From: a virus | Strand: one strand, 5' to 3' | Length of the DNA stretch: 30,276 nucleotides | Virus record (IMG/VR): IMGVR_UViG_3300037847_003835 | Coordinates: 1-30,276 of that record | Shown here: positions 3,811-24,346 of the stretch, piece after piece | How positions within the stretch are numbered: the first letter of the stretch is position 1 | Layout of the letters: the number at the start of each line of letters is the position of its first letter | Notes under the pieces: model-generated | Told to the model about the DNA's origin: nothing | What the model saw: the letters and a program-made list of their open reading frames with translations, nothing else | The model's database searches: none | Program-made: the position numbers and the translations under genes

Positions 3811-4476
3811 ATGATTCAACATCGTATAGCTACAGCAATAAAAAAGATTGAAACAATCACAGATAGTATTAATTACTACGAACTTGCAAAGAAAGATCAA
3901 GAGGAGGCACTCGATAATCTCATTGCATCGTATTTGCAGGAATGCACAGCCGAAGAAGATAAGGAAGGTGTTTCTAGTCTTATCAGATATCTATATTGGT
4001 ACACTGATATTACAGCAATGAAGATCAGTGAGATGACAGGAGTTGATAACAGAACACTATCAAAGAGAGCCGGATCACTAATTCTATCTGCAAAATGCCA
4101 ACGATGTGGCTCAACCTATGCAAGAGAAAAAAAGAGTAGAACAGATCAAGGGTCTGCAATTTGCCCAAACTGTATACATGCCGATGCTTTGGATTCACAC
4201 AAAGCATTTTTAGAGGATTGGGTCGATAACTCATGGGCTACTCATAAAAACCCAAAGATGGATCAGGGAACATATGCAGCTTATCTTCATTCTGCGCATT
4301 GGAAAAAAACAAGATCACAAGCACTTATGAGAGCCGGATATAAATGTCAGGCCTGCTCTACCAAAGAGGAAATATTAGATGTGCATCATAACAGTTATGA
4401 GAGACTAGGATCAGAAGAGCCTCAAGACCTGATCGTTCTCTGTCGGACGTGTCACAACAAGGTGCATAAAAAATGA
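3811..4476 (+). CDS. HNH endonuclease with HTH and zinc ribbon (221 aa)
   Basis: Domain order: a helical N-terminus; an HTH-like segment at about 64-90 (SEMTGVDNRTLSKRAGSL); a zinc ribbon C96-x2-C99...C118-x2-C121; then a C-terminal HNH domain with CQAC (179-182), VHHNS (191-195) and CRTCHNKVH (211-219). HNH proteins of this class are metal-dependent nucleases that nick or cut DNA, and some phage versions aid packaging. This one is among replication genes rather than next to terminase, so a role in host DNA breakdown, recombination or homing is equally possible. An in-frame opening reaches back to 3619, but that would overlap the loader gene and cross the promoter at 3736. ATG 3811, preceded by AGGA, is preferred. 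The stop overlaps the next start (ATGA). Confidence 0.85.
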   Translation: MIQHRIATAIKKIETITDSINYYELAKKDQEEALDNLIASYLQECTAEEDKEGVSSLIRYLYWYTDITAMKISEMTGVDNRTLSKRAGSLILSAKCQRCGSTYAREKKSRTDQGSAICPNCIHADALDSHKAFLEDWVDNSWATHKNPKMDQGTYAAYLHSAHWKKTRSQALMRAGYKCQACSTKEEILDVHHNSYERLGSEEPQDLIVLCRTCHNKVHKK

Positions 4477-20131: not shown

Positions 20132-21088
20132 ATGCCATTACAATTCGGACGCGGTGCATTTATAAAATTAGGAGAGGAATCAACATATGGAAACATTGCG
20201 GGGGCTATGGGTGTTGATAATAGAATCATATCCGCAAGTTTTCAGAAGACACAAGAGAAGGAAAGAAAAACACACCTATCTCAATCCGGCGGAGGTGGTT
20301 TCCAAAATGGTCATTTCGAAGCCTTTCTTAATTGCGGCGGTTCTATTGATCTTCCTTTGCTTTATGAAGGTACAGGGATGCTTTTGAAGGCTGCTGTAGG
20401 TAATGCAACAACTTCAGGATCAGGACCTTACGAGCATCTTTATATTCCTACAGCAGATGGGACTGTTCCATCTTTGTCTATTGCACTACAAAGAGGTACA
20501 GGAATCAGTAACTCAAAAGAGATCTTTTTAGGTTGTAAGGTTGCATCTATGAATATCTCAGGATCGGCAGGGGAAGAGATCACTGCTTCATTTGAGATCA
20601 TTGCACAGGATTCTCAATCAAGAGCAGCTGCTTTAACTTCTTCATTTGGATCTGGGAAACAAATGTTTCATTATGAATGTGGTAATCTTTCTTACAGTGG
20701 TAACAGTTTTGCAATGAAATCTTTTGAATTCACACTTGATAACAAACTCGAAAGAAGAAACGTATTAGGTGATAAGAAAACCTTAGAGCCAGTTGTATCT
20801 GATGTTAAGGACGTTACTTTATCCGTTACTCTAGAGATGGAAGACAATCTGTTGTTTGATAACTATCTAGCAGGAACTCAATCAGATGTCGTTTTTACAT
20901 TGACAAATAGTGATGGTGATGCTTGTGAAATAACAATCAGAAATGCCTATGTTGTTGATTATGATGATGCTATCAACACATTTGGACCCATCGAGAGAAC
21001 AATGACCTTTGTAGGTGAATCTGATGCAGTTGATGAAGCAATACAGATCAAGATAACAAATCAACAAGCTTCTGCGGTTGCTAATTAA
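20132..21088 (+). CDS. Major tail (tube) protein (318 aa)
   Basis: The N-terminus RGAFIKLGEESTYGN resembles tail-tube proteins. The remainder is beta-rich with paired modules ending in FEFTLDNKLERRNVLG and MTFVGESD, the usual strand-turn pattern of tube subunits. The position fits: after the terminator and before the chaperone and tape measure genes. The ribosome site TAGGAGG is strong, as expected for an abundant protein. At 318 residues it is longer than lambda gpV, so one domain may be surface decoration. Confidence 0.8.
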   Translation: MPLQFGRGAFIKLGEESTYGNIAGAMGVDNRIISASFQKTQEKERKTHLSQSGGGGFQNGHFEAFLNCGGSIDLPLLYEGTGMLLKAAVGNATTSGSGPYEHLYIPTADGTVPSLSIALQRGTGISNSKEIFLGCKVASMNISGSAGEEITASFEIIAQDSQSRAAALTSSFGSGKQMFHYECGNLSYSGNSFAMKSFEFTLDNKLERRNVLGDKKTLEPVVSDVKDVTLSVTLEMEDNLLFDNYLAGTQSDVVFTLTNSDGDACEITIRNAYVVDYDDAINTFGPIERTMTFVGESDAVDEAIQIKITNQQASAVAN

Positions 21089-21342
21089 TGATCTCTAATC
21101 TGATCAAAAGAATATTAAAGAAACTAGAATGCAATCTCACAGATTTGGAAAAATACTCTGGGATTGAATATTCTATTTTGTGGAGAATGCTGAATCACAA
21201 TCAAGATCCTACAGATTGGGAGATCCAACAATTAGAAAAGGTATTATCTGAGAAAACAAATTATAAACAATCATATATAAATAAAAGATTAAAAAAATAC
21301 AAGGCAGGTGTATATTATGGAAATATTAAAGGAGATCGCTGA
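21088..21342 (+). CDS. Small HTH-like protein in the tail operon (84 aa)
   Basis: Residues about 10-55 (LKKLECNLTDLEKYSGIEYS, then ILWRMLNHNQDPTDWEIQQL) look like a Cro/CI-type helix-turn-helix. The C-terminus is basic. Its start overlaps the tube gene stop by one base, and it overlaps the chaperone gene. A DNA-binding protein here is out of place among tail genes, so it may regulate early or late expression, or only resemble an HTH. Confidence 0.6.
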   Translation: MISNLIKRILKKLECNLTDLEKYSGIEYSILWRMLNHNQDPTDWEIQQLEKVLSEKTNYKQSYINKRLKKYKAGVYYGNIKGDR

Positions 21343-21835
21343 AGCATCAACATTTCAAGTAGAATGTTTTGGCGGAAAATTACTAATAGAAGGAAGAATA
21401 TTAACAGCCCCCGAAATAGAACAGATCGGGCTAGGTTCTTCTCTTTTGGCTCAAGAGGTCTTGATGAATAACAAACAGCAAGGTCTTAGTAACATTGATC
21501 AGATAAGAGAAAAAGCAGATAAAGAAGGTATGGAAGGTCTAGACGAAACAGAACTTCTTAGGCTACTCGACTTTGCAAAATCAATCAGGCCTGAAACGAT
21601 GGCGAGAATATCAGAGGATCAAGATAAGATACTCTGTAAGGTTATTAAAAGAGCCTCTCAAGATGGTGTTACGTGGGAAAATATAACCCTTTGTCATGCT
21701 ATGGAACAAATGAATCCTGATAACAATGTTCTTTGGGTGGGAGTATTTACTTCTGATGATCGAAACAACATTATAAACAAGGCTATGCAGGGCCAGCAGG
21801 AGGCAATAGAACGGTTACAACGATTTCAAGGATGA
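21317..21835 (+). CDS. Tail assembly chaperone, G-type product (172 aa)
   Basis: An acidic, mostly helical protein lying between the tube and tape measure genes, the invariant place of gpG-type chaperones that coat the tape measure during tail assembly. The N-terminal half has strands (FQVECFGGKLLIEGRILTAP); the rest is helical. ATG 21317 is preferred over the GTG at 21308. The frame ends at TGA 21833, but a second frame opens there and carries a T-type domain, so a fusion product is expected by +1 frameshift at 21824-21827. Confidence 0.8.
   Translation: MEILKEIAEASTFQVECFGGKLLIEGRILTAPEIEQIGLGSSLLAQEVLMNNKQQGLSNIDQIREKADKEGMEGLDETELLRLLDFAKSIRPETMARISEDQDKILCKVIKRASQDGVTWENITLCHAMEQMNPDNNVLWVGVFTSDDRNNIINKAMQGQQEAIERLQRFQG
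21824..21827 (+). other. Probable +1 programmed frameshift site (TTT C)
   Basis: In the G frame the end reads CGA TTT CAA GGA TGA. Slipping one base forward lets the Phe tRNA move from TTT to TTC and continue as AAG GAT GAT, giving ...RFKDDPNYVF. The +1 frame is open only after a TAG at 21807-21809, so the shift must occur between about 21810 and 21835. A -2 shift is the alternative. Confidence 0.6.
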
Positions 21836-22052
21836 TCCCAACTATGTATTTCTTATTGATCTTGTTGCTCGTACTTATGGAAAACTTCCTAGCGAGGTTC
21901 TTAGGTTGGATTTTGATGATCTCTATATATGCGTACATTGCATTATACAAAGGTCGAAACGGTTTAATAAGATTCTGAGGAAACAAAGCAAAGGAAAAAA
22001 TAGCATGCTCTTTCCAATTATAAATATCTCAGACCTTACTGATATGATATAA
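21828..22052 (+). CDS. Frameshift extension of the tail chaperone, T-type (74 aa)
   Basis: Frame +1 relative to the G product encodes KDDPNYVFLIDLVARTYGKL, then PSEVLRLDFDDLYICV, and ends at TAA 22050. The LAR.YG.LPSEVL.L...DL pattern is typical of T-type chaperone domains in siphoviruses. The extension has no ribosome site or start of its own at the right place, and the fused product would be about 244 residues. It binds the tape measure in the GT scheme. Without this reading, 21836-22069 would be an unexplained gap. Confidence 0.75.
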   Translation, partial: KDDPNYVFLIDLVARTYGKLPSEVLRLDFDDLYICVHCIIQRSKRFNKILRKQSKGKNSMLFPIINISDLTDMI

Positions 22053-22069: not shown

Positions 22070-24346
22070 ATGATGGCTCAAAATCTAGTAGAATATGTTT
22101 TAGATATAAAGACAAAGGCAGCGGAAAAAGGTCTTGATAATGTTGTTGATGCTTTGGAAGACGTTGAGAAGGAACTGAAAAAGACACAAAGAGAAAGTGC
22201 AGATACATCATCCTCTTTTAATAAGTTGAAAAAAGCCGGCATGGCTGTGGGGAAGGTTACGGCTGTTATGGCTGCTGTAGGTGTTGCTGTGTTGGCAGCA
22301 GGAAAAGCCGCTTTTGAAGCCTCTAAGAAGGTTACAGATCTAGTTAACGAGTTGAATGATTTATCTGTTAGAAGTGGGGTATCTGCGAAAACGATACAAG
22401 GACTTAGACAGGCTCTTTTATCTAGTGGACAATCTGCAGAAGGTCTTAACGAAATACTCGGTGCTATCTCCGGACAGTTTGCACAACTTGGAGCAGAAGG
22501 ATCTGCGGTTGAGAAAAAGTTCCTTTCTTTTGGTGTAGCAGTAAGAGATACAAATGGCGATCTTAGATCAAACAATGATATTCTTCTGGATTCTATCAAA
22601 CTATTACAGGGGATCTCTGATTCTTCAGATAGATCAAGAGCATCTGTTGCTTTATTTGGTGAAGCGGGTGCAAAGTTGAATCAAGCACTTGCAGCAGGTG
22701 ATTTTGAAAAGTTCTTATCATTTACAGAAAAGTTTGGTATTGATACAGGACCTGAAGCAAGTAAAGCAGCTGCACATTTTCAATTTGTATTATCAGGATT
22801 AGGAACGGTTTTAAATGGAACACTTCAAAAGTTTGTAACTGCTACAGATGGACAGAATAGATTTATAAAAGGCATGATCAAACTAGGCGGTATCGTAGCA
22901 TTTACAGGATCACTTGTAGAATCCTTTGGTGATGAAATTGGTTTTGTTACTGATAAACTTCTAGACCTTCTCAAGTTTGGAATCAAGCAAACAATACTCA
23001 TTCTAACAGGACCTTTTGCTCTTGCATTAGGATCAATCATCAACAATTTAGAATTGTTTGGAATACAAGTTGATTTTGTGAATAAAGCCATGTCTAGTCT
23101 TGCAAATTTTACGATTGAAACAGTAGATCCTACAAATAGACTATCCAATGCAATAGACAAAGCCAAAGCAGACATGAAAGAATATAATGAAGCTATGGAA
23201 GGGGTCAATATTAATTTAGATGCATTTGGTAACGGTGCAACTGAAGCATCTACTGAAATGAATAATCTAGGGAAAAGCACAGAGGAAACGACAGAAAAAA
23301 TTAGAGATTTAAATGATGTTATAAGTGATCTTTTTGGAAAATTTGTATCTTTTAATATTGATAAATTTGTATCTGATTTTGCAATTGGTTTTGCTGTTAT
23401 TGATAAGATTATAAACAAATCATTTGATGCTTCTAAAATTGATCTATTTGCCAACACATTGAGAAAAAAACTATTTGGTCAAGTTGTACAATTTGCTGAT
23501 ACAAGCGATCCTTTAAAAATTCCTGATATGGTAGTTGAAGCAACTAAATTTACTGGATTTCAGGAATTTCTTGATAAAATGAAATTAGGTGTAGCAGAGA
23601 TCTTTTCTATTGCTGTAAAGGGTTTGGGACGATCTGCATCTAAGATATCAGGAGCATTGAGTAAAGGACTTTCAGCAGGTGCAGCTTTAGCGGTTACAGG
23701 TGTTTTAGCAGTTCTCAAAATTGCTCAAGGACTGGGTCAAAGAGGATCAACTGTTAGAGAAGTAGAAAAGAGTGTCGAAGAAGATATCAGAGCAACAGCA
23801 AAGGCTATAGAACTAGGTCTTCAGGCTCTTCCTAGAATACTCTTTAATGTACTACCTCCGATCCTTATTGAGTTTATTGATCGTTTGATCTTTGGACTAC
23901 TCAAAGGATTCGCTGAACAGTTTAACAATGTGATAAATGTTTTTAAATCTCTTTTCACTAGAGAGGGAAGACAGGAATTAAAAGCACAGAGGGACAGAAG
24001 ACAGGAAGCCAGAGGGGAAGAGTTTAGAAGAAGATTAGAGCAACTTGTCAATATTGCAGGATTCAGATCAGGCGGTCGGTTTCTTCCTTCTGCTAAAGGT
24101 GGAATCAAGTTTACAGGATCGGATGAGGGTCTTGCCATGTTGCATCGTGGGGAGTTTGTCGTGCCAGAGACGGGGCAAATGCCACAAGCAGTCCAAAGAA
24201 CTATGGGCATGGGTCAAGGAGGTATGACTATCAATATTAATGCAGCTGTAGTAGAATCCAATGCTGTTGATGAGTTAGTTAGACAGATTGAGAGAAGGTT
24301 CCAAACATTTGGATCTTCTACTTCTCCCTTATTTGGAGGTCGATGA
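22070..24346 (+). CDS. Tape measure protein (758 aa)
   Basis: A long, mainly helical protein with an N-terminal coiled coil and several hydrophobic stretches: about 53-85 (AVGKVTAVMAAVGVAVLAAG), near 275-300, near 310-335 (ILILTGPFALALGSIINNL), about 537-557 and 590-620. The C-terminus ends in a Gly-rich region (GMGQGGMTININA) and RFQTFGSS. It sets tail length. At about 1.5 angstrom per residue it predicts a tail near 110 nm. No lysozyme or peptidase motif is visible. ATG 22070 or the next ATG may start it, behind AAAGAGG. It overlaps the next gene by 4 bases. Confidence 0.9.
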   Translation: MMAQNLVEYVLDIKTKAAEKGLDNVVDALEDVEKELKKTQRESADTSSSFNKLKKAGMAVGKVTAVMAAVGVAVLAAGKAAFEASKKVTDLVNELNDLSVRSGVSAKTIQGLRQALLSSGQSAEGLNEILGAISGQFAQLGAEGSAVEKKFLSFGVAVRDTNGDLRSNNDILLDSIKLLQGISDSSDRSRASVALFGEAGAKLNQALAAGDFEKFLSFTEKFGIDTGPEASKAAAHFQFVLSGLGTVLNGTLQKFVTATDGQNRFIKGMIKLGGIVAFTGSLVESFGDEIGFVTDKLLDLLKFGIKQTILILTGPFALALGSIINNLELFGIQVDFVNKAMSSLANFTIETVDPTNRLSNAIDKAKADMKEYNEAMEGVNINLDAFGNGATEASTEMNNLGKSTEETTEKIRDLNDVISDLFGKFVSFNIDKFVSDFAIGFAVIDKIINKSFDASKIDLFANTLRKKLFGQVVQFADTSDPLKIPDMVVEATKFTGFQEFLDKMKLGVAEIFSIAVKGLGRSASKISGALSKGLSAGAALAVTGVLAVLKIAQGLGQRGSTVREVEKSVEEDIRATAKAIELGLQALPRILFNVLPPILIEFIDRLIFGLLKGFAEQFNNVINVFKSLFTREGRQELKAQRDRRQEARGEEFRRRLEQLVNIAGFRSGGRFLPSAKGGIKFTGSDEGLAMLHRGEFVVPETGQMPQAVQRTMGMGQGGMTININAAVVESNAVDELVRQIERRFQTFGSSTSPLFGGR

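Follow-up and report, generated by a model that had tools for sequence, protein, structure and literature searches.

A probable +1 slip at TTT C joins two tail-chaperone-like frames in a marine bacterial virus and its relatives

Phage lambda has the tail assembly chaperones gpG and gpGT, and the G-T frameshift is conserved in double-stranded DNA phages (Xu, Hendrix, and Duda, 2004; in PMC5009743). Only about one GT per 30 G is needed in lambda (PMC5009743). Recoding of the G/GT type is already known in tailed viruses, as are its +1 versions. Listeria phages PSA, A118, and A500 use a +1 shift in tsh (CCC_UGA), as PSA does in cps, and the chaperone of the haloarchaeal virus HSTV-2 is very likely produced by a +1 shift (PMC5009743). 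Among the chaperones of the SEA-PHAGES collection, 350 forward versus 2368 backward slippery-site cases were positive (PMC10885494).

Two other groups of +1 sites are relevant here. Sites of the form UUU_Y are known from argI of E. coli and yopN-tyeA of Yersinia, and in bacteria UUU_Y tends to shift +1 even where no stop codon is adjacent (PMC5009743); in influenza PA-X, the motif UCC_UUU_CGU makes UUU_C a proven +1 site (PMC3498833). The bacterial prfB gene (RF2) carries a +1 cassette of the form AGGGGG-N3-CTT-TGA (PMC12421855).

We analyzed an IMG/VR virus record of 30,276 bases (G+C 37%), the whole of which we call the window. A 101-base direct repeat (99%) is present at the contig ends (1-101 and 30176-30276), and the contig is therefore probably a complete or circularly closed genome. 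A +1 slip at TTT C very likely yields a GT tail-chaperone fusion in this marine bacterial virus, judging from the arrangement and conservation of the following features:

20132-21088, + strand: tail tube protein gene (Phage_tube_2, phrog_290; Pfam E 3.5e-27, PHROG E 1.5e-37)
21317-21835, + strand: G-type frame, 172 aa, the zero frame of the recoding (homologues aligned in 77 distinct loci)
21798-21803, + strand: SD-like AGGAGG, its last base 20 nt before TTT, a possible stimulator (anti-SD energy, synonymous-codon test)
21824-21827, + strand: TTT C, the predicted +1 shift site (tRNA-Phe from UUU to UUC, C skipped), kept across relatives
21828-22052, + strand: T-type domain read after the shift, 74 aa (conserved +1 frame, dN/dS about 0.15)
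21833-21835, + strand: zero-frame stop TGA ending G, not adjacent to TTT C in every relative
22070-24346, + strand: tape measure protein gene (PHROG tape-measure families, e.g., phrog_12506, E 1.3e-15)

A synteny scan also placed a phrog_290 tube gene upstream of G in three related loci (L122, L129, and L094), and tape-measure matches were found downstream in L122 and L074; the downstream ORFs of L128 and L094 had no match when scanned. Tail-tube and tape-measure neighbors are seen in the window and also, as far as loci were scanned, in most of the distant branches. Between the tail tube gene and G, the window also has an 84-aa ORF (21088-21342) with a weak HTH_26 match (E 0.048), and there is little or no space for an ORF of this type at that place in L074 and L112.

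As originally predicted, the G frame ends at 21835, with the TGA at 21833-21835. T lies in +1 with respect to the G frame and is open from 21810 to 22052 (TAA at 22050-22052). It is closed upstream by a TAG at 21807-21809, and its only ATG and TTG codons fall well inside the domain (TTG near 21906, ATG at 22002), in agreement with the earlier statement that T is open only from 21810 and has no usable start of its own. G itself likely starts at ATG 21317 and not at GTG 21308, since relatives keep MEILKEI or MQILKEI at this end. If the C of TTT C is skipped, the junction would read ...LQRFKDDPNYVFLIDLVARTYGKLPSEVL and the GT fusion would comprise about 244 aa, joined through LQRFKDDPNYVF, with LPSEVLR and DDPNYVFLIDLVAR among the peptides of its T domain. 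Trypsin would cut inside the junction peptide proposed earlier, RFKDDPNYVF (R/FK/DD), so a mass-spectrometry check of this peptide needs another protease.

Scans of IMG/VR viral contigs recovered 77 distinct loci in which the G-T joint is intact, representing 24 lineages at 80% identity, and later scans of viral contigs added a few more. T lies in the +1 frame relative to G in all 77; none of them fuses the two in frame or has T in -1, and T is nowhere a separate gene with a conserved start. Identity of T to the window ranges from 100% down to about 35% (72-100% in near relatives, 35-50% in distant ones). The domain is under purifying selection (median dN/dS 0.15), and its substitutions number 774, 334, and 1479 at codon positions 1, 2, and 3, respectively. 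The retained identity, the invariable +1 relation, the low dN/dS, and the codon-position bias together show that the T frame is not open by chance. A search of prokaryote genomes for the family gave only one real match, on a contig of viral size that had been binned to a Verrucomicrobiales MAG. This contig (PBAL01000088.1, carrying L125/L170) is the only hint of a host and may be a mis-binned virus.

TTT followed by a pyrimidine is found in frame at the joint in 73 of the 77 loci (71 TTT_C and 2 TTT_T); the joint reads TTT TGA in L112, TTT TTC in L125, and TTT TTT CGT in L110. In an aligned subset of near, mid, and far sequences, all 42 have TTT C at the joint, and phenylalanine 192 is the only one of 43 invariant, degenerate residue columns to use a single codon. 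The codon that follows is CAA in the clade of the window and CAC, CGT, CGC, CTC, or CTG in others, from which we conclude that the skipped C is held as a nucleotide and not for an amino acid. CGN occupies the A site in 16 of the 24 lineage representatives, and several relatives read TCC TTT CGT where the window has CGA TTT CAA. The joint chance of the synonymous choices over 23 TTT lineages is about 3e-8, a value not corrected for phylogeny. In five near relatives (L017, L020, L021, L025, and L026) the T frame opens only just before TTT_C. Four others (L014, L015, L018, and L022) have sense codons in place of the adjacent stop, which comes later, so the signal does not include an adjacent stop in the clade of the window.

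In the 42 sequences, we considered every candidate P-site codon from the stop that closes the T frame upstream to the stop of the zero frame. Only at TTT C could the P-site tRNA re-pair fully after a +1 slip in every sequence. The original prediction had placed a +1 slip at TTT C 21824; TTT C does lie there, the comparison of the 77 loci supports the interpretation, and the alignment with related phages, which it had proposed as a check, puts the joint at TTT_C. A -2 shift would lead into the same frame, and gpGT of phage Mu is a natural example (PMC3498833). However, no candidate codon allows -2 re-pairing in all 42 sequences, TTT allows it in none, and it is TTT_C that has been kept instead, which makes a -2 shift very improbable.

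Separate translation of T, by re-initiation or internal initiation aided by the AGGAGG at 21798, would fit the location of this SD-like sequence just upstream and of the G stop within the beginning of T. Nevertheless, 13 of 18 near relatives have no ATG, GTG, TTG, or CTG in the stretch that begins 20 codons before the joint and ends 15 codons after it, no T start codon is conserved across clades, and a stop closes the T frame of the window only 24 nt upstream. We consider this route highly unlikely; the comparison disfavors both of the outcomes that the original prediction had named as speaking against it. In a single metagenomic contig one might suspect an indel from sequencing or assembly, or a gene in decay. 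The relatives refute this: the break recurs at the same place in 77 distinct sequences drawn from many samples, and purifying selection acts on T, leaving this explanation a negligible chance. Some bacterial genes and IS elements rely on transcriptional slippage (PMC3711429), but CGA TTT CAA contains no homopolymer of the usual length and the flanks vary while TTT_C stays, so that slippage, too, has almost no probability.

A +1 slip during translation would proceed as follows. Most ribosomes would terminate at TGA 21833, yielding the 172-aa G protein. In a fraction of them, the P-site tRNA-Phe (anticodon GAA) on UUU 21824 would slip one base forward and pair with UUC; C21827 would be skipped and reading would resume at AAG GAT GAT, giving the GT fusion of about 244 aa. 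The single tRNA-Phe, anticodon GAA, prefers UUC over UUU (PMC3498833), and P-site slippage on UUU_C is therefore the natural explanation. Their position and the parallel with lambda gpG/gpGT point to a role as tail assembly chaperones for G together with a little GT. Neither G nor T has a credible match in PHROGs, Pfam, PDB sequences, or known phages, and the putative chaperone role is suggested by gene order, size, and the fusion itself, not by homology. At the level of sequence, then, the +1 relation, the site, and the gene order are conserved and T is under purifying selection; the slip mechanism, its efficiency, the chaperone role, and any stimulation by AGGAGG are inferred.

The rest of the window shows no avoidance of in-frame TTT_C (33 seen versus 31 expected), and a second in-frame TTT CAA lies near the start of G (codon 13, 21350 region). 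The tetranucleotide alone therefore cannot set a high efficiency, and either context or a low required level must set the site apart. A slow A-site codon is not supported as the cause in the window, where CAA is common (28 per 1000). No signal of RNA structure 3' of the site emerged from consensus folding of the near, mid, and far groups. Upstream hairpins are able to stimulate +1 shifting (PMC6321510). The far clade (L088-L096, L114-L120, L126, and L127) has a small hairpin, GCNGUY-AAAC-GRCUGC, about 5 nt before TTT that folds well; its pair counts are not above those of shuffled sequences, and we do not claim it as a signal.

Another feature upstream of the joint is the distal SD-like sequence. 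Among loci of the TTT type, anti-SD energy reaches a sharp minimum of -9.5 kcal/mol, versus a mean of -1.0, in the window of 8 bases that starts 27 bases before TTT, and GGAGG ends 20 bases before TTT; in the CTT and GTT types the minimum lies at position -10. The distal GGAGG occurs in 54 of 77 loci versus 0.9% of comparable windows in G, an excess that follows in part from the conserved residues E-A. The codons over AGGAGG (CAG GAG GCA) are invariant within the near clade of the window. When amino acids were fixed and codons were drawn from the usage of each lineage, the observed energy was -10.4 versus -5.7 (Fisher p about 8e-5, 23 lineages). This is suggestive of an SD-like sequence held at synonymous positions, in lineages that are not fully independent. 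Two branches have a near AGGGGG without the distal GGAGG. It is possible that the upstream AGGAGG stimulates the +1 shift at TTT C. We know of no mechanism by which an SD sequence at 20 nt would promote +1 shifting; the spacing in RF2 is 3.

Two branches of the family have a different +1 signal, which resembles the prfB cassette. One (L121-L124, the same four contigs as L172-L175) reads (A/C)GG GGG TC(A/C) CTT TGA A, with AGGGGG in L122-L124 and CGGGGG in L121; the cassette of L122 lies around 3985-4003, and the opening of the T frame in L122 and L123 precedes the end of the stop by only about 14 nt. The other (L129/L130; L176-L178) reads AGG GGG TTG GTT TGA A. Both sit in a seven-member branch (support 100/97) among TTT_C members and are not sisters. 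L129 pairs in the tree with L128 (100/100), which has TTT CTC; their G proteins are about 76% identical while their recoding signals differ (AGG GGG TTG GTT TGA versus TTT_CTC). TTT CTC is likewise present in L180 and L181, whose G proteins share about 74% identity with that of L129. On the simplest reading, TTT_C gave way to an SD-plus-stop signal twice, independently; the inner branching of the tree is too weak to prove the number. More tentatively, and more probably wrong than right, the family could be viewed as committed to +1 shifting, with UUU_C plus a 20-nt SD-like stimulator and a twice-acquired RF2-like cassette replacing each other, the latter tying tail assembly to the RF2 level of the host.

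The UUU_C slippage class had been predicted from influenza PA-X and bacterial error sites, and about 24 lineages of conserved +1 sites now join it. In the open-access literature searched, neither UUU_C nor an RF2-like cassette turned up as described for a tail chaperone, and both variants appear to be new. Gene finders miss the T domain in these phage genomes. Natural sister pairs such as L128 and L129, in which the recoding signal was switched and the proteins stayed alike, make it testable what turns a common tetranucleotide into a programmed one and whether +1 shifting is promoted by an SD-like sequence lying 20 nt upstream.

Compared with lambda G/GT, the locus likewise lies between tail tube and tape measure and has two frames that overlap, a C-terminal T without its own start, and recoding near the end of G that is conserved in relatives. 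It differs in the apparent +1 shift at UUU_C, a -1 shift on a slippery heptamer being the commonest but not the universal form, and in that G and T have no detectable sequence kinship to known chaperone families. The Listeria, HSTV-2, and SEA-PHAGES cases likewise involve +1 recoding in tail genes, although their shift sites differ and the sequences are unrelated. With argI, yopN-tyeA, and PA-X it shares the proposed P-site movement of tRNA-Phe from UUU to UUC with no need for an adjacent stop, and several relatives carry the exact PA-X motif, TCC TTT CGT; unlike these, it concerns a phage tail gene and most members have GGAGG 20 nt upstream. The window is unlike prfB, having its SD-like sequence at 20 nt and the sense codon CAA in the A site. 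The cassettes of L121-L124 and L129/L176-L178, on the other hand, share the 3-nt spacer of prfB, with GTT in the L129 type, and differ from it in the base after TGA, which is A in these phages and C in prfB.
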